A stretch of DNA of 64,000 nt from Ramlibacter agri. Its GTDB lineage: Bacteria; Pseudomonadota; Gammaproteobacteria; Burkholderiales; Burkholderiaceae_C. The position numbers were made by a program, and so were the translations under genes. Below the pieces are notes generated by a model that was not told where the DNA came from, made no database searches, and worked only from the letters and a program-made list of their open reading frames with translations. The first letter of the stretch is position 1; each line of letters opens with the position of its first letter. Below are positions 6,107 through 25,054 of the stretch, in pieces. The DNA lies in the NCBI RefSeq assembly GCF_012927085.1, contig NZ_JABBFX010000003.1, forward strand, positions 930,001 to 994,000, in the 5' to 3' direction.

Positions 6107-6970
6107 ATGGAGAAAGTGACGCTTCTCGCCGCCGACGGCGTCCCGCTGGCGGCGCGCATCTACGAAGCCCAGGCGCCGCTGCACGGCAACGTCGTCATCG
6201 GCGGCGCCATGGGCGTGCGGCAGGACTACTACGCGCGCTTCGCGCAGTGGCTCGCGCGCCAGGGCTGGCGCGTCCTCACCTTCGACTACCGCGGCAGCGG
6301 CGACTCAGCGCCGCCCAGCCTGCGCGGCTACCAGGCCGACCTGTTCGACTGGACGCGCGACTACGAAGCGGCCATCGACGATGCGCATGCCGCGCACCCC
6401 GACCTGCCGCTCTACCTGCTCGGCCACAGCCTCGGCGCGCAACTGCCCGGGCTGCTCGCGAACCAGGGCAAGGTGGACGGGCTGCTGTCCATCGCGGCGG
6501 GCAGCGGCTACTGGCGCGAGAACGCGCCGCAACTGAAGCGCGTGGTGCCCTGGTTCTGGTTCGTGCTGGTGCCGCTGGCCACCCGACTCTTCGGCTATTT
6601 CCCCGGCCGCATGCTGCGCAAGGTGGGCGACCTGCCCACGGGCGTGGTGCTGCAGTGGCGCCGGTGGTGCCTGGACCCGCAGTACAGCGTCGGCGCCGAA
6701 GGCGAACTGGCGCGACTGGCCTATGCCCGCGCTCGTTTCCCCGTGTTCGCGCTGTCCATCGACGACGACGAGCTGATGACGCTGCGCGGCACGCACAGCC
6801 TGCTGGCCCTCTACGAAAACGCGCCGCGTCAGGTGCAGCGCATCGCGCCGGCCGACCTGGCCGTGCGCCGCATCGGCCACTTCGGCCCCTTCCGCAGCGA
6901 GCACGAGACCAGGCTCTGGCCCCGCATGGCCGGCTGGCTGCAAGACCTCGGAGCCCCCGCAACAGCATGA
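6107..6970 (+). CDS. Alpha/beta hydrolase (serine hydrolase)
   Basis: Alpha/beta-hydrolase-fold protein of 287 residues. The nucleophile elbow is GHSLGAQ, in the strand-turn-helix after LPLYLL, and RVLTFDYRGSGDS is a typical oxyanion/cap-region motif. A hydrophobic stretch near residues 145-165 lies in the cap domain and may form a membrane-facing lid. AGGAGGA precedes the ATG. Its stop overlaps the next start (ATGA), so translation with the thioesterase-like protein is probably coupled. The context suggests a thioesterase or lipase acting on acyl substrates; the sequence does not define the substrate. Confidence 0.9.
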   Translation: MEKVTLLAADGVPLAARIYEAQAPLHGNVVIGGAMGVRQDYYARFAQWLARQGWRVLTFDYRGSGDSAPPSLRGYQADLFDWTRDYEAAIDDAHAAHPDLPLYLLGHSLGAQLPGLLANQGKVDGLLSIAAGSGYWRENAPQLKRVVPWFWFVLVPLATRLFGYFPGRMLRKVGDLPTGVVLQWRRWCLDPQYSVGAEGELARLAYARARFPVFALSIDDDELMTLRGTHSLLALYENAPRQVQRIAPADLAVRRIGHFGPFRSEHETRLWPRMAGWLQDLGAPATA

Positions 6971-9879: not shown

Positions 9880-10716
9880 ATGAACCTGCACGGCAAGACC
9901 CTCTTCATCACCGGTGCCTCCCGCGGCATCGGCCTGGCCATCGCGACGCGCGCGGCGCGCGATGGCGCCAACGTCGTGATCGCGGCCAAGACTTCGGATC
10001 CCAATCCCAAGCTGCCCGGCACCATCCACAGCGCGGCGGAGGAAATCCGCGCCGCCGGCGGCCAGGCGCTGCCGCTGCAGGTGGACATCCGCGAGGAGGG
10101 GCAGGTGCTCGCCGCCGTGAAGCAGGCCGTGGAAGCCTTCGGCGGCATCGACATCCTGGTCAACAACGCCAGCGCGATCAGCCTCACCGGCACCGAGCAG
10201 ACGCCGATCAAGCGCTACGACCTGATGAACCAGATCAACGCGCGCGGCACCTTCCTGTGCACGCAGGCCTGCCTGCCGGAGCTGAAGAAGTCGGCCGCGG
10301 CCGGCCGCAACCCGCACGTGCTGACCATGTCGCCGCCGCTGTCGATGAAGACCAGGTGGTTCGCGCCGCACACGGCCTACACGATGGCCAAGTACGGCAT
10401 GAGCATGTGCACCCTGGGCCATGCCGGCGAGTTCCGCCAGTACGGCATCGCCGTCAACAGCCTGTGGCCGCGCACCGCCATTGCCACCGCCGCCTTGCAG
10501 ATGATCCCCGGCGTCGACCTCGCGCGCTGCCGCAAGCCGGAGATCCTGGCCGACGCGGCTTACTTCATCCTCACGTCCGACGCGAAGGACGTCGCCAACA
10601 GCGGCAACTTCTTCATCGACGACGAACTGCTGGGGCGCCACGGCGTGACGGACCTGGAGCGCTACTCCGTGACGCCGGGCACGCGGGATTTCATTCCCGA
10701 TTTCTTCGTGGACTGA
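9880..10716 (+). CDS. SDR-family oxidoreductase (HSDL2-like)
   Basis: Short-chain dehydrogenase of 278 residues. The cofactor motif is TGASRGIG and the active-site motif YTMAK carries the normal Tyr and Lys. The middle segment DPNPKLPGTIHSAAEEI and the C-terminal block with SGNFFIDDELL are characteristic of the hydroxysteroid-dehydrogenase-like 2 group, often linked to fatty-acid metabolism. GAGG precedes the ATG. It is the last gene of the beta-oxidation run; a GC-rich hairpin follows. Confidence 0.94.
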   Translation: MNLHGKTLFITGASRGIGLAIATRAARDGANVVIAAKTSDPNPKLPGTIHSAAEEIRAAGGQALPLQVDIREEGQVLAAVKQAVEAFGGIDILVNNASAISLTGTEQTPIKRYDLMNQINARGTFLCTQACLPELKKSAAAGRNPHVLTMSPPLSMKTRWFAPHTAYTMAKYGMSMCTLGHAGEFRQYGIAVNSLWPRTAIATAALQMIPGVDLARCRKPEILADAAYFILTSDAKDVANSGNFFIDDELLGRHGVTDLERYSVTPGTRDFIPDFFVD

Positions 10717-10721
10717 CCAGG

Positions 10722-10744
10722 CCTTGCCGGCGGGCCCGGCAGGG
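10722..10744 (+). terminator. GC hairpin after the beta-oxidation operon
   Basis: An inverted repeat CCTTGCCGG / CCGGCAGGG with a short loop lies 6 bases after the stop at 10716. There is no T-tract, so it may be a 3'-end stabilising or weak termination hairpin, not a classical intrinsic terminator. Confidence 0.4.
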
Positions 10745-10896
10745 TAGGCCGCCTGGCTTACGCAGTTGCCATCTCGCTGGTATTAGTCAATTTGCCTAGG
10801 CATGCGGGGGCCCGGCAGGCGCCGCAGTAAATATTCCGCGCCGCGCCCATGTTGCCCTTCGTTTGCGTGCGGCGAGGCCGGCCGCGCGCAAACCGC

Positions 10897-11571
10897 ATGG
10901 GACACTCTCGCCCCCTTCGAAGCCGGAACACAGGATTGCCCACCGCTGCCTTGCGGGTCGTGCTTGCCGACGACCACGACCTCGTCCGCTCGGCCCTCCA
11001 GGCCTTGCTCCTCTCCATTCCCGGCGTCCAGGTCACCGGCGAAGCGCGTGACGGCATCGAGCTGCTCGCGCTGCTCGAATCCGCGCCGGCCGACCTGGTG
11101 CTCACCGACATCTCGATGCCCCGCATGGACGGCATCGAGGCGACGGCGCAGATCCGCGCGCGCTTCCCGGGCGTGAAGGTGCTCGCCGTGTCCATGTACG
11201 ACAGCGCGGACTTCGTCCAGCGCGCCGTGGGCGCCGGCGCCTGCGGCTACCTGATGAAGCAGGCGAGTCCCGCGGAGCTCGCCGAAGCGCTGCGTTCGAT
11301 CGTGGCGACCGGCAGCTACTTCAGCGCCCCGGTGGCGCGACTGCTGATGCAGCCTACCGAGCGCGCGGCCGACGACGACCTGACCGGCCGCCAGCTCGAA
11401 GTGCTGAAGTGCATCGCCGGCGGCCTGTCGGCCAAGGAGATCGCCTTCCGCCTCGGCCTGAGCCGCAAGACGGTGGACGTGCACCGTGCCCGCATCATGG
11501 ACCGCCTGCAGGTGAGCGACGTCGCCAGCCTGACGCGCTACGCCCTGCGCCAGGGGCTGATCGCGCAATGA
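10897..11571 (+). CDS. NarL/LuxR-type response regulator
   Basis: Two-domain response regulator. The receiver domain starts at LRVVLADDHDLVRS (acidic pocket) and has the phosphoacceptor Asp in LTDISMPRMDG (codon at 11107) and the switch Lys in GYLMKQASP. The C-terminal HTH_LuxR domain is LTGRQLEVLKCIAGGLSAKE followed by SRKTVDVHRARIMDRL. The start is uncertain. The ATG at 10897 lacks a clear ribosome-binding site; TTG at 10936 or 10951 would place the phosphoacceptor at residue 58 or 53, which fits the family better. The stop overlaps the kinase start. It lies directly upstream of the Hfa-like genes, so it is a candidate regulator of them; this is inference from position. Confidence 0.92.
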   Translation: MGHSRPLRSRNTGLPTAALRVVLADDHDLVRSALQALLLSIPGVQVTGEARDGIELLALLESAPADLVLTDISMPRMDGIEATAQIRARFPGVKVLAVSMYDSADFVQRAVGAGACGYLMKQASPAELAEALRSIVATGSYFSAPVARLLMQPTERAADDDLTGRQLEVLKCIAGGLSAKEIAFRLGLSRKTVDVHRARIMDRLQVSDVASLTRYALRQGLIAQ

Positions 11572-13127
11572 GCGCCGGGCCGGCCAGCCGCGAGGGCGCC
11601 TGCGATGGCGAGGTCGAGGAACTGCTGGACAGCATCCGGCGCGCCAAGGGCCGCCTGCGCGAACTGCTGGTCGAACGCGAAACGCAGCTGCGCATGGCGG
11701 CGCGCCTGGCCTCGGTGGGCGCGTGGCGGGTGGTGCTGGCGCCCCTGCGCTTCCTGCCTTCGGCGGAATGGCTGCGCCTGCTGGCGCAGGGCACGGATGG
11801 CGCCGTCTCGCTGACCGGCGCGCTGCGCCTGTTCCCGCGGCCGGCGCGGCGTACGCTGCTCGCGCACGTGCGCGACGGACTGCGCGGCCACGCCGGCTTC
11901 GATCTCGTGGTGCCTGCCCGCACCCTCGCCGGCGAGCGCATCCACCTGCGCCTGATCGCCGAGCCCGAGTTCGACGCTACGGGTGCGCTGGCGGCGCTGC
12001 ATGGCGCCTGCCAGGACGTCACCGAACAGGTGGCGCGGGAGCGCGAGGCCACCGGCCTGGCGCTGCGGCTCGCCAACACCGTGGAGAGCATCACCGACGG
12101 CCTGCTGAGCCTGGACCGCGACTGGCGCGTCACTTACGTCAACGCGGCGGCCGAACGCATCCTGCGCTGCCGCCGTGAACCGATGGCGGGCCAGGTGCTG
12201 TGGCAGGTGTTTCCCCACGCGGTGGGCGGCGTCTTCCACCATGAGTGCGAGCAGGCGCTGGCGGAGAACCGGCCGCGCGTGTTCCAGTCCTTCCTGGAAG
12301 GGCTCGGCATCTGGCTGGAAGTGCGCGCCTATCCGACGGGGCAGGGGCTGGCGGTCTACTTCACCGACGTCACGCAGCAGCGGCTGCTGCAGGAGGAACT
12401 GGCGCGCCACCAGCGCGGCCTGGAGCAGCTGGTGCAGGAGCGAACGCAGGAACTGCGCAACGCCAACGATGAACTCGCCGCCTTCACCATGGCCGTCGCG
12501 CACGACCTGCGGGCGCCGCTCGCGGCCATCGAAGGCTTCAGCCGCGCATTGCAGGAGCGGCTGCCGGCGCACGACGACCGGGCGCAGCACTATGCCGATC
12601 GGACCGCTGCGGGGGTGGAACGCATGGGCGACATGATCGACGCGCTGCTGGCGCTTTCCCGCGTGGGGCAGACGCCGCTGGAGCGGCGCCCCATCGACTT
12701 GAGCGCGCTGGCCGCGGAGGTGGTGGAACAGCTGCGCGCGGCCGACCCGCTGCGGCAGATCAAGGTGGAGATCACGCCGGGCCTGCAGGCCAGCGCCGAC
12801 CCGCGCCTGCTGCGCACCGTGCTGGAGAACCTGCTGGGCAACGCCTGGAAATTCACCCGGCGGACGGCCGGCGCGCGAATCAGGTTCGGGCTGGCCGGCG
12901 ACGGCGCCTTCTGCGTCGCCGACAACGGCGCGGGCTTCGATCTCGCCTATGCGCACAAGCTGTTCACGCCATTCCAGCGCTTCCATGCGCAGGAGGACTT
13001 CCCGGGCACCGGCGTCGGGCTGGCCGCCGTGCGCCGGGTGATCCAGCGCCACGGCGGCACGATCAGCGCGGAGTCGGCGGCGGGAGAGGGCGCCACGTTC
13101 CATTTCACGCTGGCGCCGGCGGGCTGA
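11568..13127 (+). CDS. Soluble PAS-type sensor histidine kinase
   Basis: Histidine kinase of 519 residues with no transmembrane segment, so it senses a cytoplasmic signal. An N-terminal helical region (EELLDSIRRAKGRLRELLVERE) precedes two PAS-like modules (about residues 40-160 and 165-285), then a coiled linker. The HisKA box is AVAHDLRAPLAAIEGF, with His312 as the likely phosphorylation site. The HATPase domain has an N-box (LENLLGNAWKF), a G1 box (VADNGAGFD) and a G2 box (GTGVGLAAVRRV). The ATG overlaps the regulator stop (ATGA), so the two form an operon and a cognate pair. The N-terminal PAS ligand cannot be predicted. Confidence 0.94.
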   Translation: MSAGPASREGACDGEVEELLDSIRRAKGRLRELLVERETQLRMAARLASVGAWRVVLAPLRFLPSAEWLRLLAQGTDGAVSLTGALRLFPRPARRTLLAHVRDGLRGHAGFDLVVPARTLAGERIHLRLIAEPEFDATGALAALHGACQDVTEQVAREREATGLALRLANTVESITDGLLSLDRDWRVTYVNAAAERILRCRREPMAGQVLWQVFPHAVGGVFHHECEQALAENRPRVFQSFLEGLGIWLEVRAYPTGQGLAVYFTDVTQQRLLQEELARHQRGLEQLVQERTQELRNANDELAAFTMAVAHDLRAPLAAIEGFSRALQERLPAHDDRAQHYADRTAAGVERMGDMIDALLALSRVGQTPLERRPIDLSALAAEVVEQLRAADPLRQIKVEITPGLQASADPRLLRTVLENLLGNAWKFTRRTAGARIRFGLAGDGAFCVADNGAGFDLAYAHKLFTPFQRFHAQEDFPGTGVGLAAVRRVIQRHGGTISAESAAGEGATFHFTLAPAG

Positions 13128-13266
13128 GCGCCGGCAACGCCGCGAGACTCTGCACAGAAGCTTACGATTTTCTGCGCCGAAACTGGTAGGCATTCTCTCT
13201 GTCCAACCCGCAAATTGGCGTGCCAGAAAGTATTCACGCCGCTGGCGGGAGGCTGCAGCAATTTCA

Positions 13267-13283
13267 AACTTTGAATCAAAGTT
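13267..13283. promoter_or_regulatory. 17-bp palindrome, operator candidate
   Basis: AACTTTGA and TCAAAGTT flank a single central A, a perfect dyad typical of a dimeric regulator site. It lies about 140 bases upstream of the promoter-like block of the hfaA-like gene. Its right half continues into GTTGTA, which also occurs in the shared promoter block. The binding protein is unknown; the LuxR-type regulator just upstream is a candidate. Confidence 0.45.
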
Positions 13284-13404
13284 GTAGGGCGTTTCCCGAC
13301 GAACTAGTCGGCATGCCTGACAGGGATAAGCGATGTTCCTATGGTGGTTACCTATTAGGAAATCGGCTCCAAACCCCTGGCTCAATCTACCTACCGATTC
13401 AGGT

Positions 13405-13433
13405 TTGAAAGAAGTTGTAATTCAGTCCATGGA
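13405..13433 (+). promoter_or_regulatory. Putative promoter of the hfaA-like operon
   Basis: TTGAAA (13405-13410), a 17-base spacer containing GTTGTAAT, and a weak -10-like CATGGA (13428-13433), followed by TTCGTTGC. The same order and spacing occurs upstream of the second cyclase-homology gene at 20950-20978, which supports function. The poor -10 suggests activator dependence. Confidence 0.5.
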
Positions 13434-13489
13434 TTCGTTGCAAAGATGAACGCAGCGAAACGAGAAAACAGCTCACCACGGACGGAACC

Positions 13490-14062
13490 ATGCAACCCTT
13501 CCTCGTAAAAACGGCCGCTGCCTGCCTGGCAGCCCTGCTGCTTGCCGCCCTGCCGGCCCGCGCCAACAACATCGGCGAAAACAGCTCCTGGTCTTTCGAG
13601 ACGACCCAGGAAAAGTCGGCCCGCCAGACCAACCTCGACCTCTCCGAGCGCAAGAAGGGTGGGTACTACGACTCCTTCCAGACGTACACCACCAACAACA
13701 CCTACATCCAGAACCAGACCAACTGCAGCCTGTCGGCGTCCTCGGTCGGCAACTCGGGCAGCAACGGCCTGTCTTCGTACACCTCCTCGCCCTCGGTGAG
13801 CGGCAGCGCCAGCACCTCGGCCGGTTCCACCGCCAACGGCGCGACCAACAGCACCCTGGGCGCGACCGGCCTCACCAGCACCCAGAGCAACAGCGGCAGC
13901 CTCTATTCGGGCGTCGGCTCCTCGATCACCAGCGGCACCACCGGCAGCGTCGCGGCCGGCGGCGGCACCTCGAGCCAGGTGCTCAATTCGCAACAGACCA
14001 GCTCCGGCGTCCTCACCGCCGGCGTCAGCGGCAGCACTGCCTGCGCCGGCGTCCGCTACTAA
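13490..14062 (+). CDS. HfaA-like holdfast anchor protein (small secreted subunit)
   Basis: Exported protein of 190 residues. A Sec signal peptide ends at LPARA (residue 25). The mature N-terminus ENSSWSFETTQEKSARQT, then LDLSERKKGGYYDSFQ and a threonine/asparagine-rich TYTTNNTYIQNQTNCS, resembles Caulobacter HfaA, a small amyloid-like protein anchoring the holdfast to the envelope. The remainder is a low-complexity Ser/Gly/Thr/Asn tail typical of fibre-forming or curlin-like proteins. There are two cysteines in the mature protein, Cys79 and Cys185. The ATG at 13490 follows GGACGGA. The HfaB- and HfaD-like genes follow in the order of Caulobacter hfaABD. The family call rests on recalled similarity and gene order. 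Confidence 0.72.
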   Translation: MQPFLVKTAAACLAALLLAALPARANNIGENSSWSFETTQEKSARQTNLDLSERKKGGYYDSFQTYTTNNTYIQNQTNCSLSASSVGNSGSNGLSSYTSSPSVSGSASTSAGSTANGATNSTLGATGLTSTQSNSGSLYSGVGSSITSGTTGSVAAGGGTSSQVLNSQQTSSGVLTAGVSGSTACAGVRY

Positions 14063-14110
14063 GCCTCTCCGCGGCGCAGCGCGCCGCCTCCCTCTTCTCC
14101 AAGGATTCCC

Positions 14111-15412
14111 GTGATCAAGACCTTCAGCACGTCCACCGTGCTGTTGGGGGCCCTGCTCGCCCTCGGCGGCTGCAGCACGCTCCCTTCACAGCAGTTTGCC
14201 CCCGACGAAGCCCCCGTCGTCGTCGGCCCGGCGCCCCGCGCCAACGTGACCTCCATCGAGCCGTCCCTGGCCTGCCTGGCCGAGACGCTGCGCAGCTGGC
14301 ACGCGCCCGTGCTGGGCGTGGCCGTCGGCGACGTCAAGGACTACACCGGCAAGTTCAGCCAGACCGAAGGCAGCGAGATCACCCAGGGCGGCGCCCTGAT
14401 GGTGTACTCCGCGCTCGGCAAGCTGGGCGAGACCGTGCGGGTGCACGAGCGCTTCGACACGCGCATCGCCGAACTGGAACTGGCCTACACCGACCGCCGC
14501 CAGCTGGGCGACGGCCAGCGCCATGACATCGAGCAGGGCAAGCCCGCCGTGCCGTGGCTGCCGTACTTCGGCGGCTCCATCCTCAAGTCCGACTACTACA
14601 TCGTCGGCGGCATCACCGAGCTGAACTACAACATCGCCTCCGGCGGCATCGAGGCCGACATCGCCGGCTACAACGCCAAGGCCCGCACCTACAGCATGAA
14701 CGTGGGCGTGGACCTGCGCATCGTCGACACCCGCACGCTGGCGGTGGTCAAGACGGTGAGCCTGCAGAAGCACGTGATCGGCGAGGAAGTCGGCGCCGGC
14801 ATCTACCGCTTCTTCGGTTCGCGCCTGGTCGACCTCAACGCCGGTTCCAAGAAGCAGGAGCCGCTGCAGCTGGGCGTGCGCGCCACGCTGGAGCAGGGCG
14901 TCATCGAGCTGGTCGCCGCCGTCACCAAGGTCGACGCGTCGCCCTGCACCGGCGCGCAGCCGGCTCCGGCCCCCGCACCCGCCAAGCCGCGCGCCGCCGC
15001 GAACACCGTGCCCGCCGCGGCAGCGCCCGCGCCGCAAGGCACGCAAAGCGGCCTTGCCCCGCAGAACGCGACCGGCGCCGACGCCGCCGGCCAGCAGCTC
15101 GTGGCCTTCGACATCAACAGCAGCACCATCGCGCCGCGGGCGCAGGGCGTGCTGGACGCGCTGGCGCAGGAAGCCGGCGCCGGCCGCAACCTCACCGTGC
15201 AACTGCTGGCGCGCGACACCGAACAACTGCCGCCGCAACAGCTGGCCGACCTGATCGAGCAGCGCGTGCGCGCCGTCAGCGACGCGCTGGCCGCCAAGGG
15301 CGTGACCCCCGGGCGCATCCGCGTGAGCTGGCGCGCCACCCGCATCGACGCCAGCGTGCCGCGCATCGGCGCCGGCTACGTGGCGGTCGCCACCGTCGTC
15401 ATCGGCTCTTGA
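14111..15412 (+). CDS. HfaB/CsgG-family outer-membrane lipoprotein with OmpA-like C-terminus
   Basis: Lipoprotein of 433 residues. The signal peptide ends in LALGGC, with Cys21 as the lipidation site. The CsgG-like domain (residues ~45-275) has APRANVTSIEPSLACLAETL, VGDVKDYTGKFSQTEG, VPWLPYFGGSILKSDYYIVGGI and GVDLRIVDTRTLAVVKTV. CsgG/HfaB proteins form the outer-membrane pore that exports amyloid or anchor subunits. A Pro/Ala-rich linker (about 281-325) leads to a C-terminal segment (about 330-433) that looks like a diverged OmpA peptidoglycan-binding domain (LVAFDINSSTIAPRAQGVLD), which CsgG lacks. The start is GTG at 14111, with AAGGA upstream. It presumably exports the flanking HfaA- and HfaD-like proteins. 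Confidence 0.82.
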   Translation: MIKTFSTSTVLLGALLALGGCSTLPSQQFAPDEAPVVVGPAPRANVTSIEPSLACLAETLRSWHAPVLGVAVGDVKDYTGKFSQTEGSEITQGGALMVYSALGKLGETVRVHERFDTRIAELELAYTDRRQLGDGQRHDIEQGKPAVPWLPYFGGSILKSDYYIVGGITELNYNIASGGIEADIAGYNAKARTYSMNVGVDLRIVDTRTLAVVKTVSLQKHVIGEEVGAGIYRFFGSRLVDLNAGSKKQEPLQLGVRATLEQGVIELVAAVTKVDASPCTGAQPAPAPAPAKPRAAANTVPAAAAPAPQGTQSGLAPQNATGADAAGQQLVAFDINSSTIAPRAQGVLDALAQEAGAGRNLTVQLLARDTEQLPPQQLADLIEQRVRAVSDALAAKGVTPGRIRVSWRATRIDASVPRIGAGYVAVATVVIGS

Positions 15413-15456
15413 GCCGTCCCATCCACCCCTCGCAGATTCCCCCTCGAAAGCAACAA

Positions 15457-18400
15457 GTGAAGAAGAAGTCCGTCCAATTCCGCCGCACGATCCTGGCCAC
15501 GGCCTGCGTGCTGGCCGCCGGTGCCGCTTCCGCCCAGGTGTCCTACCCCTGGGGCCCGTCCGGCACGTACAACCTGTCGTTCGGCGCCGCCTCCTCGCAG
15601 CAGCTGAGCCTGCGTGACTACATCCTCGCCATCACGGCGCCGCAGGAGAACCCGGAATCGGTTTCCGCGCTGATCCAGGCCGCGTCGGCCGGCGGCACCT
15701 TCCAGGGCGGTTCCGCGAACGGCGTCACCGTCGGCGGCAACAGCATCGCCGCCAAGGCGACCGGCAGCGACAACTCCTCCAGCGCCGACCTCGCCCTGCT
15801 GCGCAGCGGCGCCGAAGGCCAGGACGGCATCGGCATCGCCACCTCGCAAGTGCGCGGCAACAACTCCTACCCCTACGGCTACGGCACGCAGACCGAAGCC
15901 CGTGTCGACGGCTCGCACATCGGCGTCGACAGCTACGGCATGACGCCCGCCAGCGTCGCCATCGAAGGCAACGCCGTTTCCGCCGCCGCGGTCCTGAACC
16001 AGTCCGCGTCCATCGCCTCCGGCGTGGTCCCGGCCGGCTACGGCGCATCGCAAGCCGTCGCCTCGATTTCCTCCTACTCCGTGGAGCCGTCCATCGGCGC
16101 CGCCGCCCAGGCCTCGACCAGCAACGACGGCATCATCGCCAGCACCGCCGGCTCGGTGAACGTGGCCACCTACCAGTCGGCGCAGCAGGCCGGCGTGAAC
16201 GCCGGCTCCGGCGCCAGCGTCCGCTACACCGACGTCGCCCTGCAACTGGGCGGCGGCGGCACGGCCGAACAGGGCCTGAGCCTGAAGGACAACAGCATCT
16301 CCGCCGGCTACGCGGCCAACAGCGCCAGCAACGCCGTGCAGGCCACCGGCGGTTCCACCTTCGCCACGAGCGCCATGGTCACCAACGTGCAGGCCAACGG
16401 TGAAGGCCGCTACCTGCCCATCCCGGTGGGCGACGAGCCCCTGGTGCCCGTCACCCCCGGGCCGCTGAGCTTCGCCGCCTACGGCGCCGAAGTGCCGAAC
16501 GCCACCGCACAGGTGGAAAGCAGCCGCATCACCGCCGACCTCGGCGGCTACGACGAAGCCGGCCCGACTGCGCTGGCAGCCGCCCTGCGCCTTACTGGCA
16601 ACTCCATCTCCGCCACCTCCACCGGCAACGCCGCCGGCGCCCGCCTGGCCGACGGCACCGTGCAGGCCGGCAACAGCATCGTGCTGGACGCCTCCACCGT
16701 GGGCCGCAGCGGCTACGACTCCGGTTACCTCGGTGCCGGCGCGCAGCTGCACACCGACGGCAGCTACTCCGACGCCAGCCTCTACGCCGACCTCGGCCTG
16801 CTGAACACCCAGGCCAACAGCTCCACCACCCTGGCTTCCCGCGTCTACGGCAGCGGCGTCGCCGCCAACGTGGATCGCCTGCTGTCGCAGGCCGCGGTCG
16901 CCATCAGCGGCAACAGCCTGAAGGCCGACGCCACCGGCAACCTGGCCGGCAACCTGGTCGACGTGAAGGCCACCGACTTCGGCGCCACCGTCGCCGCGGC
17001 CAACGTGCAGAGCAACGACGACACGTCGATCTCCGCCTCGCAGGAAGAATCGCAGGTCACCGTGCAAGGCGGCGGCAGCGGCCGCAAGGTCACGGTCGGC
17101 GGTTCGACCACCCTGGCCAACAACACCATCGCGGCCACCGCGGCCGGCAACATCGCCGCCACCAGCGTGTCCGTGCAGGCCACCCGCCTGCAGTCCGTGG
17201 ACTCCGAGTCCGGCAGCGCGATGGCCATCGCGCAGACCTGGGAAGGCACTTACGCCGGCGCCCGCGGCGGCGTCACGGCCAGCAACCTGCAGTCCAACAC
17301 GGGCTCCAAGCAATCCATCGACGCCTCCATCTACGGTGGCGTCGTCGGTGCCGACCTGACCGGCAGCTACTACGGTGAAACCGCCGGCCGTCCCCGCCTC
17401 GACAGCGCCACCATCGCGCTGACCGGCAACACCATCGTCGCGCAAGCCACCGGCAACGGCGCCGCCACCGGCGTCAGCCTGGCCGGCACCGACGGCCTGG
17501 TCCACGCGGCAGTCGCCAACGCGCAGTCCAACGACGTGCGCATCTCCGCCACCGCCATGGAAACGGGCGTGTTCGCGCAGACCGGCCCGGCCGCCGGCAG
17601 CACCATCACCGTGCAGGGCAACGCCGTCGGCGCCGCCGCCACGGCGAACCAGGCGAGCAACACGTTGTCCGCGCAGTTCGCCAACATGGACGTGTCGTCC
17701 TCGCCCTACTACTACGGCGACTCCATCGACGGCCCGGGCTTCTACGGCAACCGTGCCGTGCAGGCCATCGGCAGCGCCCAGCGCAACAGCGCCGACGTGA
17801 CCGCCAGCAACACCAGCGAGTCCGGCTTCGCCACCGCCACGGTGACGGGCGCGCGCGGCATCATCGGCAGCAACGTCACGGTGCAGGGCAACCAGGCCAC
17901 GGCCACGGCCGCCGGCAACCAGGTGCGCAACGCCATCGCCATCGATGCCGGCTCCATGGGCCGCCAGTACGGCAGCGGCGCTTCCATCGCCGACATCAGC
18001 AGCACGCAGGACAACTACGGCTCCACGCAGTCGGTGCTGGCGGGCTACGGCCAGCAGCTGTCGATCGGCGCCCACGTGCAGGGCGCGATGGACAGCGCCA
18101 ACGTCGCCGTCACGGGCAACACCGCGCTCGCCACGGCCACCGCCAACGACGCCAGCAACAAGCTGGCGGTCACCGGCGGCAGCCTGGGCCAGTCCAGCGG
18201 CTATGCGATGTACGGCATGCCGTACTCCAACGCCACCGACTTCAACCTGGCGAACCAGCAGAGCACCGACGGCCCGGTGCAGGCGCAGGCCAGCGATGTC
18301 CGCATCGCCATCGAGCGCGCCGGCAACCGCAACGACTACGTCGGCGGCTCCACGCTGGCCGTCAACGGCAACACCATCGCCGCGGAAGCCCGTGCCAACA

Positions 18401-19938
18401 GCGCCGTGAACGCGGCCTCGCTCACCGGCTTCACCACGCTGGCCAGCAGCGCCGCGGTGTCGAACAGCCAGTACGGCGAATCCAGCGTCGATGCCCGCGT
18501 CGATGGCGCCCAGCTGCGCATCCGCAGCGTGGACAGCTCCGTCGAGAGCTCGCAGCTGGCGATGAAGGACAACACGGTGAAGTCCCTGGCCGTGGGCGCA
18601 TCGGCGACCAACAGCCTCGACGTGCAGGCCACCGCGCTGCAAGGCACCGCGCCGGTGTACTACCCGGACGTCGTGTCGGTGATCGCTCCGCTGGCCATGG
18701 AGTCCACGCCCGCCGGCTACGCCGTCGTCAACAACCAGTCCCAGTGGGGCTCGGTGTCGGCGCGAACCGAAGCGTCGGTGCGCATGAACCTCTCGGGCTC
18801 CGGCCTGGAAGGCGGCACGGCGACCGTGTCGGGCAACGCGATCTCCGCCGTGGCGCAGGCCACCAGCGCCAGCAACACGCTGAACCTGGCCGGTACCACC
18901 ATCGGCAGCATCGGCGGCACCGTGAACAACAGCCAGTTCACCTCGGCCGACGTCTCCGCGGAGCAGGCTTCGCAGCCCCAGGCCGGCGGCAGCTTCGTGG
19001 TGCAGGCGGGCGGCGTCTACGCCGCGCCGCTGACGGTGAGCAACAACAGCGTGCTGGCGTCCGCCGGCCAGAACGAGGCCTTCAACAGCGCCAGCGCCAG
19101 CGGCGCCACCGTGGCCGGCCAGTTCAGCGTGCTGAACTCGCAGCAGGGCCAGGGCTCCGTCTCGGCGCATGCCGACACGGGCCTGGTGGGTGTCTCCGCC
19201 AGCGCGGCCTCCGGCAGCAGCCTCGCGGTGACCGGCAACACGGTTGCAGCGAAGGCAGCGTTCAACACGGCGACCAACAACCTGGCTGTCGAAGCCAGCG
19301 CCGCCAACGCGGCCGGCGGCTCGGTGAGCAACGTGCAGACGACGAACTCCGGCAACGGCACGGCCTCGGTCGGCAGCTATGAAGGCCGCGGCACGATCGT
19401 CGGCGTGAGCCAGGGCCTGAACGGCTACAGCCAGGGTGTCGCCCTCAACGGCGGCACGGCCAGCGTGAACGGCAATGCCATCAGCGCCGACGCCTCCGGC
19501 AACACCGCGGCCAACGCGCTGAGCGTGGCGGCCCCGGCGGCCACCGGCTACAGCTACGGCCCGGCGTGGTCGGTGCTGAACACGCAGGCCAACGCGGCTG
19601 CGCTGAACGCCACCGTCACCTATGGCGGCCTGTTCCTGAACGGCGCTTCGCTGCAAGGCAGCTCCGCGGCGGTCACCGGCAACACGGTGGCGGCCACGGC
19701 CAGCGGCAACACGGCCAGCAACTCCCTGAGCCTGGCGGGCACGCAGTCCGGCTACGGCCAGGGCGCGGCGATCAGCAACGTGCAGACCAACAGCGCCTCG
19801 ATCAGCGCCATGGTCCGCGGCGCGATGGTGGGCGTGGGCGCCGGCCTGGCCGGCGGCGGCAGCACGGTGGTGACCGGCAACAGCATCTCGGCGCAAGCCG
19901 TGGGCAACACCGCGGTCAACAAGCTCGTCGCCAAGTAA
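15457..19938 (+). CDS. HfaD-like giant repeat surface protein
   Basis: Secreted protein of 1,493 residues with a signal peptide (RRTILATACVLAAGAASAQ). The rest consists of about 18 diverged units of 70-110 residues, each with a core like VTGNTVAATASGNTASNSL followed by a SNVQTN-type segment. Periodic Asn/Gln/Gly/Ala/Ser with no Cys suggests a beta-solenoid or amyloid-like fibre. Position after the HfaA- and HfaB-like genes matches hfaD, whose product helps fix the holdfast to the cell; Caulobacter HfaD is much shorter. The GTG at 15457 is chosen because it begins the signal peptide, with GAAAG a few bases upstream. A strong intrinsic terminator follows. It is possibly the main structural adhesin, exported through the CsgG-like pore. 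Confidence 0.78.
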   Translation: MKKKSVQFRRTILATACVLAAGAASAQVSYPWGPSGTYNLSFGAASSQQLSLRDYILAITAPQENPESVSALIQAASAGGTFQGGSANGVTVGGNSIAAKATGSDNSSSADLALLRSGAEGQDGIGIATSQVRGNNSYPYGYGTQTEARVDGSHIGVDSYGMTPASVAIEGNAVSAAAVLNQSASIASGVVPAGYGASQAVASISSYSVEPSIGAAAQASTSNDGIIASTAGSVNVATYQSAQQAGVNAGSGASVRYTDVALQLGGGGTAEQGLSLKDNSISAGYAANSASNAVQATGGSTFATSAMVTNVQANGEGRYLPIPVGDEPLVPVTPGPLSFAAYGAEVPNATAQVESSRITADLGGYDEAGPTALAAALRLTGNSISATSTGNAAGARLADGTVQAGNSIVLDASTVGRSGYDSGYLGAGAQLHTDGSYSDASLYADLGLLNTQANSSTTLASRVYGSGVAANVDRLLSQAAVAISGNSLKADATGNLAGNLVDVKATDFGATVAAANVQSNDDTSISASQEESQVTVQGGGSGRKVTVGGSTTLANNTIAATAAGNIAATSVSVQATRLQSVDSESGSAMAIAQTWEGTYAGARGGVTASNLQSNTGSKQSIDASIYGGVVGADLTGSYYGETAGRPRLDSATIALTGNTIVAQATGNGAATGVSLAGTDGLVHAAVANAQSNDVRISATAMETGVFAQTGPAAGSTITVQGNAVGAAATANQASNTLSAQFANMDVSSSPYYYGDSIDGPGFYGNRAVQAIGSAQRNSADVTASNTSESGFATATVTGARGIIGSNVTVQGNQATATAAGNQVRNAIAIDAGSMGRQYGSGASIADISSTQDNYGSTQSVLAGYGQQLSIGAHVQGAMDSANVAVTGNTALATATANDASNKLAVTGGSLGQSSGYAMYGMPYSNATDFNLANQQSTDGPVQAQASDVRIAIERAGNRNDYVGGSTLAVNGNTIAAEARANSAVNAASLTGFTTLASSAAVSNSQYGESSVDARVDGAQLRIRSVDSSVESSQLAMKDNTVKSLAVGASATNSLDVQATALQGTAPVYYPDVVSVIAPLAMESTPAGYAVVNNQSQWGSVSARTEASVRMNLSGSGLEGGTATVSGNAISAVAQATSASNTLNLAGTTIGSIGGTVNNSQFTSADVSAEQASQPQAGGSFVVQAGGVYAAPLTVSNNSVLASAGQNEAFNSASASGATVAGQFSVLNSQQGQGSVSAHADTGLVGVSASAASGSSLAVTGNTVAAKAAFNTATNNLAVEASAANAAGGSVSNVQTTNSGNGTASVGSYEGRGTIVGVSQGLNGYSQGVALNGGTASVNGNAISADASGNTAANALSVAAPAATGYSYGPAWSVLNTQANAAALNATVTYGGLFLNGASLQGSSAAVTGNTVAATASGNTASNSLSLAGTQSGYGQGAAISNVQTNSASISAMVRGAMVGVGAGLAGGGSTVVTGNSISAQAVGNTAVNKLVAK
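15733..19930 (+). repeat. 18-copy degenerate repeat in the HfaD-like protein
   Basis: Cores of the form GN(T/S/A)-x-x-A-x-A-x-x-N-x-A-x-N recur at codons near 15733, 15961, 16288, 16591, 16906, 17113, 17420, 17611, 17881, 18109, 18361, 18562, 18829, 19036, 19228, 19468, 19672 and 19873. Spacing is about 70-110 residues, shorter toward the C-terminus. Confidence 0.8.
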
Positions 19939-19953
19939 GGCGCGTTGCGTGAG

Positions 19954-19991
19954 GGGGCCGGACGCCTGCAGGCGGGCCGGCCCTTTTTTTT
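19954..19991 (+). terminator. Intrinsic terminator after the hfaD-like gene
   Basis: GGGCCGG pairs with CCGGCCC around an inner CGCCTGCAGGCG palindrome and is followed directly by eight T residues. It lies 15 bases after the stop codon. It closes the Hfa-like transcription unit and separates it from the cyclase-homology gene at 20010. Confidence 0.9.
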
Positions 19992-20009
19992 CATTCGAAG
20001 GAGAACCCC

Positions 20010-20525
20010 ATGGCCCTGGCCTCCACCCCGGCGCTGCTCGAGGCCCTTGCCATCCGCGTGCGGCGCTGCCTGCCGCTCGCGGTCTGGCAGGAAGTGTTCG
20101 AACGGCAGCGAGGCTGCAATGTCCTGTTCGAGGAGCATCACCTGACGCTGCTGCATGCGGACCCCGAGGATCCCGTCACCGGCCCCGAAGCCGCGCTGCT
20201 GCAGCAAGGGCTGCGCGCGCTGGCCACCAGCTATCACGGCAAATCAGATTACAGCGCTGCCCCCAGCTCGCTGACCTTGTTCCGCCATCCGCAGCGCGCG
20301 TTGCGGATGGCGACCGCCTTGCGCCAGCGCGTGCAGGACATGCGCTTTCGCGTCGGCATCCACACCGCGCCCTGCCACCTGGGCATCTTCGAAGCCCAGG
20401 ACCGCCACTGGGTCGTCGTGCTCGGGCCGGAACGCGAGCGCGCGGCCTCGCTGGCCTGGAACGCCGCGGCCGGCGCCATGGCGGTCTGCCCCGCGAGCCG
20501 CCGCGCGCTGGGCGCGCCCGCCTGA
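20010..20525 (+). CDS. Degenerate nucleotide-cyclase-homology protein 1
   Basis: Cytoplasmic protein of 171 residues whose layout matches class III adenylate/guanylate cyclase domains: LTLLHAD aligns with the first-metal strand, LTLFRHPQRALRMATALRQ with the dimerisation helix region, and FRVGIHTAPCHLGIF with the GIHTG strand. Only one possible metal Asp remains. The second Asp and the Asn/Arg pair used for ATP turnover are missing, so it is probably catalytically inactive. It is paralogous to the protein at 21007-21648 over its whole length. AAGGAGA precedes the ATG. Sitting between the Hfa-like operon and a small membrane protein, it may be a signalling or binding partner; that role is inference. 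Confidence 0.8.
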   Translation: MALASTPALLEALAIRVRRCLPLAVWQEVFERQRGCNVLFEEHHLTLLHADPEDPVTGPEAALLQQGLRALATSYHGKSDYSAAPSSLTLFRHPQRALRMATALRQRVQDMRFRVGIHTAPCHLGIFEAQDRHWVVVLGPERERAASLAWNAAAGAMAVCPASRRALGAPA

Positions 20526-20593
20526 AGCCGGCACTGCTGCTTGCAATCGGCCCATGCCGCTCGGTTACGCTCGCAGGCTCATCAGGAGTACCG

Positions 20594-20848
20594 ATGGATT
20601 TTCTGAGCACCCTGCATACCGACGTGAAGCTGTTGCTCGTCGGCGGGGCACTGGCATTGCTGGCGGGCCTGTTCAGCGGCACCAAGAAGAACGAGCACCG
20701 CTACATGGCCGTCTTCGTCGCCCTGATGGTGATCGCCGGCGTGCGCTTCCACCAGCACAGCGCCCAGGACGATGCCGATCGCAGCGCCAGCACGGATGCG
20801 GCGGTCAACCAGATGAAGAGCGGCGGCCTGCGCTCCGCGCGCCGCTGA
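20594..20848 (+). CDS. Small predicted membrane protein
   Basis: Protein of 84 residues (MDFLSTLHTDVKLLLVGGAL...). Two hydrophobic segments (about residues 11-26 and 38-49) are separated by a basic loop FSGTKKNEHRY, with a polar Ser/Asp/Arg tail. CAGGAG lies 7 bases upstream of the ATG at 20594, deciding the start. It lies between the two cyclase-homology genes. I do not recognise a family. Confidence 0.72.
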   Translation: MDFLSTLHTDVKLLLVGGALALLAGLFSGTKKNEHRYMAVFVALMVIAGVRFHQHSAQDDADRSASTDAAVNQMKSGGLRSARR

Positions 20849-20949
20849 CTCCGGCGGCTTCAGCGCCGGCGCGGGCCGCGAGCTCGTGTATGCGAAAGGG
20901 CTAGGCAAATCACGGAGGCACGCCACGCGAACTCCCTAGCTTGCGCGAA

Positions 20950-20978
20950 TTGAAAGCGGTTGTAATCCGATGCATCAA
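20950..20978 (+). promoter_or_regulatory. Putative promoter shared with the hfaA-like operon
   Basis: TTGAAA (20950-20955), a 17-base spacer containing GTTGTAAT, CATCAA (20973-20978) and then TTCGTTGC. These match the block at 13405-13433 in order, spacing and much of the sequence. It starts 57 bases upstream of the GTG of the second cyclase-homology gene. The similarity suggests co-regulation with the Hfa-like operon. Confidence 0.5.
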
Positions 20979-21006
20979 TTCGTTGCCAAGCTCCTGGAGT
21001 CCGAAC

Positions 21007-21648
21007 GTGCAGCCTGATCCCGTGAGTCCCCAACTGGAAGAACTTTCCGCCCGCGTCCTGCGGTTCCTGCCGCGCAGCTTGTGGCACGAACTCTTCGTGG
21101 AAGGCAATGGAGACGGCGTGCGCTTCGAGGACTGCACCTTGACGCTGTTGTTCGCGCAGGCTTCGCGGCCGGTGCCGGAGCAGGCGGCGGCCCTGCTGCA
21201 GCGCGAGATGCGCTGGCTGGCGGGCAGCCACCAGGGCAAGGCCGACCCGAGCGCGGGCCCGGACCACCTCGTCATGTTCAAGAATCCGAAGGCGGCGTTG
21301 CGGATGGCCTTGGCCCTGCAGAACAGCGAACAGAACGTGCAGTTCAAGGTCGGCATCCATACCGGCCGCTGCACGCTGGCGCTGTTCGAGGCCGAAGGGC
21401 GCCAATGGGCGCTGGCCCTCGGCCCTGAGCGCGACGAAGCCATCGCCGTGTCCGCCAAGGCGGTGGCCGGCACGGTGATCATCTCGGGCGGCACGTGCAA
21501 GGCGCTGGGCGATGCGCTGGACGAGGAAGTGGGCGGCGCGCTCGTGTCCGAGGAGTTCGAGGGCGCGGAGCTGGTGCAGGCCACGGTCATCCTGCCGCCG
21601 AAGCCGACGGCTTTCCAGAGCAGCTTCGCCGGTCTCGGGCTGACGTAA
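21007..21648 (+). CDS. Degenerate nucleotide-cyclase-homology protein 2
   Basis: Protein of 213 residues, paralogous to the product of 20010-20525 (shared LPRSLWHELF / LPLAVWQEVF, LTLLFA, NPKAALRMALALQ and VGIHTGRC). The cyclase fold is recognisable, but the metal-binding Asp of the first strand is Gln (LLFAQ), the GDG motif is changed and the catalytic Asn/Arg pair is absent, so cyclase activity is unlikely. A C-terminal extension (SEEFEGAELVQATVILPP) is not present in its paralogue. The start is GTG at 21007, with CTGGAGT 6-7 bases upstream. A promoter-like block almost the same as that of the hfaA-like gene lies upstream. Confidence 0.82.
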   Translation: MQPDPVSPQLEELSARVLRFLPRSLWHELFVEGNGDGVRFEDCTLTLLFAQASRPVPEQAAALLQREMRWLAGSHQGKADPSAGPDHLVMFKNPKAALRMALALQNSEQNVQFKVGIHTGRCTLALFEAEGRQWALALGPERDEAIAVSAKAVAGTVIISGGTCKALGDALDEEVGGALVSEEFEGAELVQATVILPPKPTAFQSSFAGLGLT

Positions 21649-21670
21649 AGCCGGTGCGTATGATGAGGAC

Positions 21671-22024
21671 ATGTCCTACATGCTCCTCATCCACGAACCC
21701 ATCGGCCAGCGGGCCACGCGCACGCGCGCCGAAGGCGAAGCGGTGTACGCGCGCATGGGGCAATTTGCGGAAGGCCTGAAGCAGCGCGACCTGCTGCTGG
21801 CCGTCGAATCGCTGCAGAACGTCGACAAGGGCACGCGCGTACAGGTGCGCGCCGGCAAGGCGCAACTGCTGGACGGCCCGTTCGCCGAAGCCAAGGAAAT
21901 GGTCGGCGGCTTCTTCCTCCTGAATTGCAGGACGCGCGAAGAGGCGCTGGCCATCGCGCGCGAATGTCCCGCCGCCGAATGGGCGAGCGTCGAAGTCCGC
22001 GAATCCGGTCCCTGCTACCTCTGA
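21671..22024 (+). CDS. YCII/DGPF-domain protein 1
   Basis: Protein of 117 residues: MSYMLLIHEPIGQRATR at the N-terminus, and LLDGPFAEAKEMVGGFFLL with the DGPF signature that names this YCII-related family. TMSYM-type starts and a ferredoxin-like fold are usual; function is unknown, although such genes commonly accompany ECF42 sigma factors, one of which lies at 23780. GAGGA precedes the ATG. The stop is four bases from the convergent TPR gene. Confidence 0.9.
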   Translation: MSYMLLIHEPIGQRATRTRAEGEAVYARMGQFAEGLKQRDLLLAVESLQNVDKGTRVQVRAGKAQLLDGPFAEAKEMVGGFFLLNCRTREEALAIARECPAAEWASVEVRESGPCYL

Positions 22025-23779: not shown

Positions 23780-25054
23780 ATGCATTCGGCCACCCACCAG
23801 GCGATCGCCGCCGTCTGGCGCATCGAGTCCGCGAAGATCGTCGCCGCGGTGGCGCGCATGGTGCGCGACATCGGCGTGGCGGAGGAACTGGCCCAGGACG
23901 CCCTGGTGGCCGCGCTGGAACACTGGCCCACGGAGGGCATCCCGGACAAGCCCGGAGCCTGGCTGATGACGACCGCGAAGCGCCGCGCGCTGGACCAGAT
24001 CCGCCGCAACAAGCTGCACGGCGAGAAGCTGGAGGAGCTGGGGCTGGACCTGGAGGCGCAGGAGGCGCTGGTGGTGCCGGACTTCGTCGACGCGCTCGAC
24101 GCGGCGCGGCAGGACGACATCGGCGACGACCTGCTGCGGCTGATCTTCACCGCCTGCCATCCGGTGCTGTCGCCGGATGCGCGGGCGGCGCTGACCTTGA
24201 AGCTGCTGGGCGGCCTGACGACGCACGAGATCGCCCGCGCCTACCTGGTGCCGGAGCCGACGATCGCGCAGCGCATCGTGCGCGCGAAGCGCACGCTGTC
24301 CGAAGCGAAGGTGCCCTACGAAGTGCCGCGCGGCGCCGAACTGCAGCCGCGCCTGGCCTCCGTGCTGGAGGTGATCTACCTCGTCTTCAACGAAGGCTAT
24401 ACCGCCACCGCCGGCGCCGACTGGATGCGGCCGGCGCTGGCGCAGGAAGCGCTGCGGCTGGCGCGCATGCTGGCGGAGCTGGCCGCGGGCGAAGCGGAGA
24501 CGCACGGCCTGGCGGCGCTGCTGGAACTGCAAGCCTCGCGCATGAACGCGCGCACGGACCGCGAGGGCCGGCCCATCCTGCTGCAGGACCAGGACCGCGC
24601 GCGCTGGGACCACCTGCTGATCCGCCGCGGCCTGGCCGCGTTGGCACAGGCGGAAGCGCTGGGCGGCGGCATCTACACCTTGCAGGCGGCCATCGCGGCC
24701 TGCCATGCACGCGCGCCGACGGCTGCCGACACCGACTGGGCGCGCATCGCGGCGATCTATTTCGAGCTGGCGCGCATCGTGCCGTCGCCGGTGGTGGAAC
24801 TCAATCGCGCCGTCGCCGTCGGCATGGCGCAGGGGCCGGCCGCGGGCCTGGAGATCATCGACCGCCTGCGCGCGGACAAGGCCTTGCGCAACTACCAGTG
24901 GCTGCCCAGCGTGCGCGGCGACCTGCTTTCGAAATTGGGTCGGCACGCCGAGGCGCGGGAAGAGTTCTTGCGGGCGGCGGAGCTGGCGGGGAACGAGCGG
25001 GAGCGGGAACTGCTGCTGGCGCGGGCGGACGCATCCCTGCGCGGGACCCTGTAG
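23780..25054 (+). CDS. ECF42-type RNA polymerase sigma factor
   Basis: Sigma-70-family factor of 424 residues. Region 2 is N-terminal (VRDIGVAEELAQDALVAALEHW ... PGAWLMTTAKRRALDQIRR). Region 4 is near residues 125-180 (ALTLKLLGGLTTHEIARAYLV, then ATIAQRIVRAK-like PTIAQRIVRAK). A long C-terminal extension (about 190-424, including VFNEGYTATAG and ELNRAVAVGMAQGP) has TPR-like helical repeats. This extension and the DGPF neighbours are the marks of ECF42; no anti-sigma gene is present, as usual for this group. The stop TAG is the first three bases of a palindromic repeat. Confidence 0.94.
   Translation: MHSATHQAIAAVWRIESAKIVAAVARMVRDIGVAEELAQDALVAALEHWPTEGIPDKPGAWLMTTAKRRALDQIRRNKLHGEKLEELGLDLEAQEALVVPDFVDALDAARQDDIGDDLLRLIFTACHPVLSPDARAALTLKLLGGLTTHEIARAYLVPEPTIAQRIVRAKRTLSEAKVPYEVPRGAELQPRLASVLEVIYLVFNEGYTATAGADWMRPALAQEALRLARMLAELAAGEAETHGLAALLELQASRMNARTDREGRPILLQDQDRARWDHLLIRRGLAALAQAEALGGGIYTLQAAIAACHARAPTAADTDWARIAAIYFELARIVPSPVVELNRAVAVGMAQGPAAGLEIIDRLRADKALRNYQWLPSVRGDLLSKLGRHAEAREEFLRAAELAGNERERELLLARADASLRGTL

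Follow-up and report, generated by a model that had tools for sequence, protein, structure and literature searches.

A conserved three-gene operon of Ramlibacter agri with an HfaB-like lipoprotein and a giant repeat protein as a candidate export system for a protein adhesin

Three genes at positions 13490-19938 of the window, by which is meant the whole 64,000-nucleotide stretch of the Ramlibacter agri genome analysed here, form a core operon for a small secreted Q/N-rich protein, a CsgG/HfaB-class lipoprotein and a 1493 amino acid repeat protein. From this arrangement we infer, with a probability of roughly 0.7, that the operon specifies a peptidoglycan-anchored pore that exports a protein adhesin and works without holdfast polysaccharide. 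The comparison invited by the gene order is with HfaABD, described in PMC6707917 as the anchor of the holdfast polysaccharide in Caulobacter. An earlier note on this DNA had set out the genes from a response regulator to the second of two cyclase-like proteins, and its order, strands and coordinates were borne out (Table 1).

Table 1. Features of the operon and its surroundings (positions in the window)
Feature	Positions	Strand	Basis
NarL/LuxR-type response regulator	10849..11571	+	domain match, synteny
PAS-HisKA-HATPase histidine kinase	11568..13127	+	domain match; 4-base overlap with regulator
Probable promoter region, AT-rich intergenic, upstream of operon	13128..13489	+	GC by segment
hfaA-position gene, 190-aa secreted Q/N-rich protein	13490..14062	+	family alignment
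hfaB-like gene, CsgG/HfaB-class outer-membrane lipoprotein	14111..15412	+	NCBIfam HfaB, CsgG, OmpA, PDB profiles
hfaD-position gene, 1493-aa repeat protein, GTG start 15457	15457..19938	+	repeat motif, homologues
Intrinsic terminator closing operon	19951..19991	+	fold; T8 at 19984-19991
Cyclase-homology protein 1, paralogue of protein 2	20010..20525	+	profile comparison
Small hydrophobic protein, 84 aa	20594..20848	+	no domain match above a cut-off
Cyclase-homology protein 2	21010..21648	+	profile comparison, synteny
YCII gene, neighbour of cyclase-like gene 2	21671-22024		
Sigma-factor gene, neighbour of cyclase-like gene 2	23780-25054		

The operon and its conservation

The segment upstream of the operon has a GC content of 51%, compared with about 70% around it, and the sigma-70-like site at 13317-13345 is the sole one found in 10600-21800, where 0.5 would be expected by chance. 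At the other end, the terminator that had been placed after the long protein is real, consisting of a GC-rich hairpin followed by T8 (-30.1 kcal/mol; z -2.4, with 4 of 200 shuffles as good). A simple scan did not list this terminator, presumably owing to its loop-length limit. A riboswitch near the operon was rejected, the four matches up to E 1 all scoring far below the gathering score of their family.

A search with the exporter returned 390 relatives, occurring for example in Variovorax, Novosphingobium and Sphingomonas, and the best 80 loci were kept. By tblastn, the small gene lies just upstream of the hfaB-like gene in 79 of these 80, and the window's giant protein finds a counterpart in 64. 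When the giant gene was picked by composition instead, 73 loci offered at least 2 kb of downstream room, and a gene of the repeat type followed in 68 of them. The hfaA-hfaB-hfaD order on one strand is seen in the window and also in the holdfast loci. The three-gene operon with its long repeat protein, in keeping with the earlier description of an expanded HfaABD-like operon, is conserved well beyond this genome. Three loci (L112, L113 and L119) hold the small gene and the hfaB-like gene without a giant gene, so the class does not depend on the giant protein.

The three encoded proteins

The HfaB-like protein scores 229-230 bits against NCBIfam HfaB, below the equivalog cut-off of 300 bits, which one control genome passes (presumably that of Caulobacter vibrioides), and 68.8 bits against CsgG. 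With its CsgG domain and a lipobox cysteine at Cys21 it belongs to the CsgG/HfaB export class, and these traits run through the family: of 56 aligned proteins, all have a CsgG match at E 0.001 and 55 have the lipobox Cys. An OmpA/Pal-like domain at the C-terminus, at about residues 321-427, is indicated by the profile of the family, whose PDB matches include CsgG (6.6e-15) and Pal (1.2e-6), though the window protein alone scores 20.8 bits against OmpA, under the Pfam cut-off of 27.2, and only 16 of the 56 reach E 0.001 singly. Arg385 of this domain is found in 56/56 and Asp369 in 44/56, the window protein having both; we take the two residues to be the pair of the peptidoglycan-binding motif.

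In a tree, ten holdfast-type HfaB proteins and one Burkholderiales protein (G090) formed a clade with 100/100 support that leaves out the window protein, and in a reduced tree (33 of 70 rows) five of five holdfast HfaB again grouped without it. Holdfast HfaB was placed inside the tailed family in two trees, and the arrangement of all tailed proteins as one clade was not rejected (p-AU 0.119).

The labels HfaA-like and HfaD-like, given to the other two products in the earlier note, were not confirmed; neither NCBIfam HfaA (NF037934) nor NCBIfam HfaD (NF037936) has a match in the genome at E 0.001. For the hfaA-position protein, a profile-profile comparison with holdfast HfaA (profile built from 9 of the 11 loci fetched) gave a Prob of 82% and a score of 43.4, and this similarity was rejected because it proved to be signal peptide. 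With the signal peptides cut, the Prob fell to 1.2% (score 17.8, versus at most 13.8 in 100 shuffles), and the realigned mature parts scored 17.7, versus at most 18.7 in 100 shuffles; neither comparison is significant. The protein has no significant match in Pfam or NCBIfam, and its family has no model in either; its 76 homologues, where named, are called "hypothetical protein". Two Cys are conserved, with at least two after residue 30 in all 80 aligned members. It is also unlike the curlin-like protein of the same genome (one sequence compared, Prob 0.1%).

The very long repeat protein is present as the earlier note had it. It has 19 motif starts in its 1493 residues, most of them 64-107 residues apart, of the type VxGNtxxAxAxGNxAxN...QxN. 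At least 117 homologues besides itself were found among the 7988 best word-sharing candidates scored, the named ones being "hypothetical", "S-layer family" or "beta strand repeat", and across loci in which the gene is neither split nor cut by a contig end its length is 990-2808 residues. Against holdfast HfaD (7 of 11 loci) the full-length comparison gave a Prob of 6% and a score of 34.7, versus at most 20.7 in 30 shuffles, but the unrelated pair of the hfaA-position and hfaD-position families scored 34.9; repeat by repeat, the score was 11.1 versus at most 8.9 in 60 shuffles. Neither result is significant, and the case for homology to HfaD stayed weak. Of the three proteins, only the HfaB-like one is supported by its sequence as a relative of the holdfast anchor.

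Flanking regulators and cyclase-like genes

The calls of a regulator and a kinase upstream agree with the domain matches, the former having a receiver (91.6 bits) and a LuxR HTH (57.1 bits) and the latter the PAS-HisKA-HATPase architecture. Cyclase homology downstream likewise holds at the level of the fold (profile of 10 family members against Pseudomonas CyaB, E 1.8e-15). In CyaB the stretch GREVNLASR contains an Asn and an Arg that, together with two metal-binding Asp, we take to be the catalytic residues of class III nucleotidyl cyclases. Both window proteins have other residues at the Asn and Arg positions; the reading is less certain at the metal positions, protein 2 keeping an Asp before the LVMF region and protein 1 having Ser there. 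Neither protein carries the full set of catalytic Asn/Arg and two metal-binding Asp of an active class III cyclase.

The claim that these flanks and the operon make one system did not hold up for the flanks. None of the 80 fetched loci, with flanks of up to 10 kb and some cut by contig ends, has a tblastn match to the cyclase pair or the small membrane gene between them. Genes of the cyclase-like family occur commonly within the genus (39 of 99 genomes, 1 of 41 genera), and in the three other genomes with both (G001, G022 and G050) the cyclase-like genes and hfaB are on separate contigs. Two relatives that lack hfaABD at this place still have the YCII gene next to cyclase-like gene 2. One of them, the Ramlibacter genome G001, has an empty site, in which the response regulator directly adjoins cyclase-like gene 2 and the kinase, hfaABD and cyclase-like gene 1 are missing, hfaABD being elsewhere in that genome; a regulator-cyclase pair occurs in G009 as well. 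The cyclase-like pair was accordingly rejected as part of the system. Cyclase-like gene 1 and the small hydrophobic gene lie outside the conserved operon, cyclase-like gene 2 belongs with its YCII and sigma-factor neighbours, and the cyclase-like genes as a whole would be part of an older local neighbourhood. The response regulator is a resident of the site.

Related regulators flank hfaABD in three of the six loci seen in the genus (the window, L048 and L075), as different paralogues in different orientations, and two of the other three loci (L046 and L039) are cut short upstream. The two-component link to hfaABD is lineage-specific, and the regulatory genes that surround this copy of the operon are for the most part local neighbours. 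The idea of dedicated regulators stands in part: just upstream of the operon, EAL genes (15/70) and receiver genes (10/70) are enriched over controls (at most 2 and 3 of 111), but kinase ATPase domains are not (3/70 versus 6/111). Some kinds of regulator recur next to the operon, and which kind it is depends on the lineage: genes with a receiver domain, EAL proteins (8 of the 15 being degenerate) or Crp-like genes.

These counts come from Pfam scans, a motif search having undercounted EAL and receiver genes, and a simple GC-position script predicted the neighbour genes, so that single calls may err; related genomes in the counts are not independent, L082 and L083 being the same strain. The upstream set (A2) holds 70 of the 78 loci with an upstream ORF (dropped: L046, L057, L071, L083, L097, L099, L104 and L108). 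The second ORF was taken in L082, L088, L090 and L096 and the third in L085, the ORFs passed over being short except for one of 290 aa in L090; four of the five replacements are EAL genes, and without them the EAL count is 11/70. For the downstream set (A3), 63 of 67 loci supplied 65 rows (L046, L053, L083 and L118 dropped), with a later ORF replacing the first in L054, L055, L064, L066 and L082, and two ORFs each from L052 and L096. The control set (A4) was drawn from 132 third genes, of which 111 were used; most of the 21 left out were short or duplicates, and among them is one EAL gene (L085) that the upstream set already includes. EAL is absent from the 25 listed of 108 control families, the last of which has 2 members, hence "at most 2".

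Proposed function and comparison with known systems

In the mechanism that we favour, the three proteins would cross the inner membrane by Sec, the HfaB-like lipoprotein would form a CsgG-type ring in the outer membrane, and its OmpA/Pal-like tail would grip peptidoglycan. The ring may then export the small Q/N-rich protein and the long repeat protein, a step argued from gene order. Once outside, both may form a protein fibre or coat by which cells would adhere to surfaces or to one another, with no need for holdfast polysaccharide. Regulators would have been recruited separately in each lineage, and here the NarL-type regulator and the kinase upstream may exert control.

Other readings were weighed against this one. 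The HfaB-like complex might instead anchor a polysaccharide as in Caulobacter (PMC6707917), with the long protein only a spacer or receptor. HfaB homology speaks for this, as does a weak glycosyltransferase match upstream in L043 (PF04488, E 9.6e-6); with no polysaccharide family in the top 25 by frequency of either the 48 upstream or the 39 downstream neighbour families, we regard it as unlikely. Somewhat less probable again is the single dedicated attachment system of the earlier note, made up of the two-component pair, hfaABD and the cyclase-like pair. The related regulators in three Ramlibacter-group loci, the general upstream enrichment of EAL and receiver genes, and the absence of the kinase from the empty site along with hfaABD and cyclase-like gene 1 all fit it, but it has to contend with the regulator and cyclase-like gene adjoining without hfaABD in G001, a further regulator-cyclase pair in G009, the lack of any cyclase-like match in the 80 loci and the terminator that separates hfaD from cyclase-like gene 1. 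That the giant protein builds an S-layer-like coat and not an adhesive fibre is the least probable of these readings: several homologues are named S-layer family proteins by their sources, but the window protein has no S-layer domain match, and a length varying over the range given above would in our judgement be unusual for a lattice.

The peptidoglycan-anchored adhesin exporter, to return to the preferred reading, might be extended to a widespread fibre export system, independent of polysaccharide, in Burkholderiales and Sphingomonadales. A co-oriented EAL protein, whose catalytic residues are lost in some lineages and which might serve as a receptor, would often place it under c-di-GMP-type control, and the Caulobacter anchor would be a shortened, tail-less offshoot; this larger picture is tentative and, on balance, doubtful. 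If the preferred reading is right, HfaB-type export would be a more general route for surface proteins and not a Caulobacter speciality; genera such as Variovorax, Novosphingobium and Sphingomonas would use it, with a built-in domain fixing it to the cell wall. It would be testable in culturable strains and would separate protein anchoring from holdfast polysaccharide, and the small protein family, with no Pfam or NCBIfam model, would be a candidate amyloid-like subunit.

Among known systems, class III cyclases such as CyaB share a fold-level sequence match with the flanking proteins, which differ in that the domain stands alone here and, in a relative, is joined to a receiver. With Pal/OmpA the HfaB-like protein shares the family-profile match and the Asp/Arg pair of the binding motif, whereas here the domain is fused to a CsgG-class channel. 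The CsgG domain, the lipoprotein and a small Q/N-rich partner are held in common with curli CsgG (type VIII secretion), but a separate CsgG locus with a strong match lies elsewhere in the genome (C2:168360, 239.9 bits), and the operon differs in its giant partner and in a small protein unlike the curlin-like protein of that locus. Caulobacter HfaABD has the same A-B-D gene order on one strand with tight spacing, an HfaB-class lipoprotein, and a repeat protein with GN and QxN motifs that ends in a GN half-repeat. The Ramlibacter operon departs from it in having no HfaA or HfaD profile match, in an HfaB-like protein that has an OmpA/Pal-like tail and falls outside the holdfast HfaB clade, and in an hfaD-position protein whose length exceeds that of the extracted holdfast HfaD proteins (316-484 aa) by a factor of 3 to 5.

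Gene layout and conservation of the three-gene unit

The host was guessed in the earlier note to be a betaproteobacterium, and this was right, since the same-genus genomes met in the searches are Ramlibacter and Caenimonas records (Comamonadaceae, Burkholderiales). The genome around the window measures 7.2 Mb. The genes of the table all lie on the + strand.

Features of the gene run around the three-gene operon
Feature	Position	Strand	Remark
Response regulator	10849-11571	+	
Histidine kinase	11568-13127	+
Small secreted protein (hfaA-position)	13490-14062	+
HfaB-like protein	14111-15412	+
1493-aa repeat protein (hfaD-position)	15457-19938	+
Terminator	between repeat protein and first cyclase-like gene	+
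Cyclase-like protein 1	20010-20525	+
Small hydrophobic protein	20594-20848	+
Cyclase-like protein 2	21010-21648	+

The operon of the small, HfaB-like and giant proteins is real and conserved, and it is probably unnamed so far. A tblastn scan (E 0.001, one genome per species) yielded 390 relatives of the HfaB-like protein, which may include holdfast HfaB proteins, and the best 80 of the 390 were surveyed as loci; they come from Burkholderiales, Sphingomonadales, Caulobacteraceae, Aureimonas, Halomonas and others. In 79 of these 80, the exception being locus L118, the gene immediately 5' of hfaB is a homologue of the small one. A giant repeat-type gene, chosen by amino-acid composition and with a median of 1613 aa, comes next downstream in 68 of the 73 loci that have at least 2 kb there (not in L092, L097, L112, L113 and L119), and the giant protein of the window, used as a tblastn query, found a match in 64/80. 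Judged by their titles, 12 genomes are represented by two copies each in this set of 80. In an even phylum sample, an HfaB-type protein was present at E 1e-30 in 18 of 398 genomes, with the window's own genome counted and holdfast proteins included.

The small proteins share an N-terminal WxFxT/S motif (76/80), at least two cysteines beyond residue 30 (80/80) and Q/N-rich repeats. No Pfam or NCBIfam model covers the family, and among 76 homologues all that bear a name are called "hypothetical protein". The 56 aligned HfaB-like proteins all have a CsgG domain, and 55 have the lipobox cysteine. In its C-terminal domain their family profile matches solved Pal and OmpA structures (E 1.2e-6); singly, only 16/56 reach the OmpA model. 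The classic motif GHAD/GHTD is plainly visible in three members, L112, L113 and L119. In these three loci the small gene is accompanied only by the tailed HfaB-like gene, with no giant gene found adjoining, and in L054, L082/L083 and L097 the giant gene appears split or shortened. Elsewhere in the window, an open frame of 8045 codons (39741-63878, minus strand) possibly encodes a giant surface protein; two end pieces of it (39741-42299 and 61277-63878) matched nothing in Pfam at 1e-5.

Regulatory genes and the flanking region

An EAL domain occurs in the nearest upstream gene at 15 of 70 loci (11/70 when farther reading frames are not swapped in), against at most 2 of 111 third-gene controls. 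Receiver domains are found in 10/70 against 3/111 at most, and kinase ATPase domains show no enrichment (3/70 against 6/111). All 15 EAL genes are co-oriented with hfaA and end 350-1283 bases ahead of the HfaA match. The AVNIS, DDFG and EGVE positions, which we take to hold the catalytic residues, are changed in eight of them, with loss of the catalytic motifs; seven retain most of the motifs. The eight degenerate genes (L054, L056, L061, L063, L070, L077, L082 and L114) belong to five Variovorax, two Xenophilus and L114, and judged from their motifs their products are candidate c-di-GMP receptors. After hfaD, a Crp-like gene stands in 8 of 65 downstream rows. A similarity search with one of these genes picked out eight, every one from Variovorax or Xenophilus. 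A two-partner-secretion transporter domain (ShlB/POTRA) was detected in 4/65; putative cases picked by eye from sequence starts are L052, L075 and L096.

In the related genome G001, the gene order of both window flanks is preserved (thiolase, SDR, DsbA-like, enoyl-CoA hydratase, regulator, cyclase-like, YCII, TPR, YCII2, sigma factor), with 73-92% identity for most genes, 64% for the TPR gene and the regulator and 60% for the cyclase-like gene. Between its regulator and its single cyclase-like gene there, G001 lacks the kinase, hfaABD, the gene for the small hydrophobic protein and another cyclase-like gene. Collinearity is imperfect, as the hydrolase-like gene (6107-6970) and second SDR (9880-10716) of the window have no clear G001 counterpart, and the assembly is fragmented (690 contigs, 81% complete, 5% contamination). 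On another contig G001 does carry hfaABD, with its own regulator (58% identical) divergently oriented and a receiver-EAL gene overlapping the hfaD end. Two further genomes have such neighbours without hfaABD: in G030 the cyclase-like gene adjoins the YCII gene, and in G009 a regulator adjoins a cyclase-like gene. As the simplest reading of this gene order, the block would have been inserted between the regulator and cyclase-like gene 2, the alternative being a deletion in the relatives.

Of 99 genomes searched, 39 contain the cyclase-like family, and each of the 39 belongs to the window's genus. At L166 (4638-5699) a receiver domain is fused to the same cyclase-homology domain, likely a response-regulator output, and other matches in the genus have frame lengths similar to this fusion.

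Relation to HfaABD and curli

The earlier note regarded the operon as HfaABD-like, and this held in part. Gene order and exporter class agree with it, and the giant protein, with 19 repeat-motif starts based on GN and QxN motifs, has a repeat logic in common with holdfast HfaD proteins as judged by eye. However, the HfaB-like protein scores 229 bits against the HfaB model (cut-off 300) and is placed by trees outside the clade of holdfast HfaB, and the HfaA and HfaD models have no match in the window's genome; the system is therefore not classed as HfaABD. Homology to HfaA was rejected: a first profile comparison gave 82% probability because of the signal peptide, but 1.2% once this was removed. 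For HfaD the profile comparisons, at full length and at the level of single repeats, gave weak scores, and at full length an unrelated pair of families scored as high. In the open-licence literature (titles and abstracts, among the matches listed), HfaB in the holdfast sense appears only in studies of Caulobacter and relatives; most listed papers with these letters concern antibody fragments or other subjects. One Burkholderiales HfaB-like protein, L040 (G090:C1:34785-35654), groups with the holdfast clade on a long branch.

A separate CsgG locus in the window's genome (L042 7432-9553, C2 near 168360) adjoins a gene with curlin-like Q/N repeats, so a curli-type system is probably present besides the hfa-type operon. 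The latter, whose function we infer throughout, is a variant within the HfaB/CsgG export class that has gained a tail-like domain and whose regulators differ by lineage; judged by gene order and exporter class, it would resemble HfaABD in its working.
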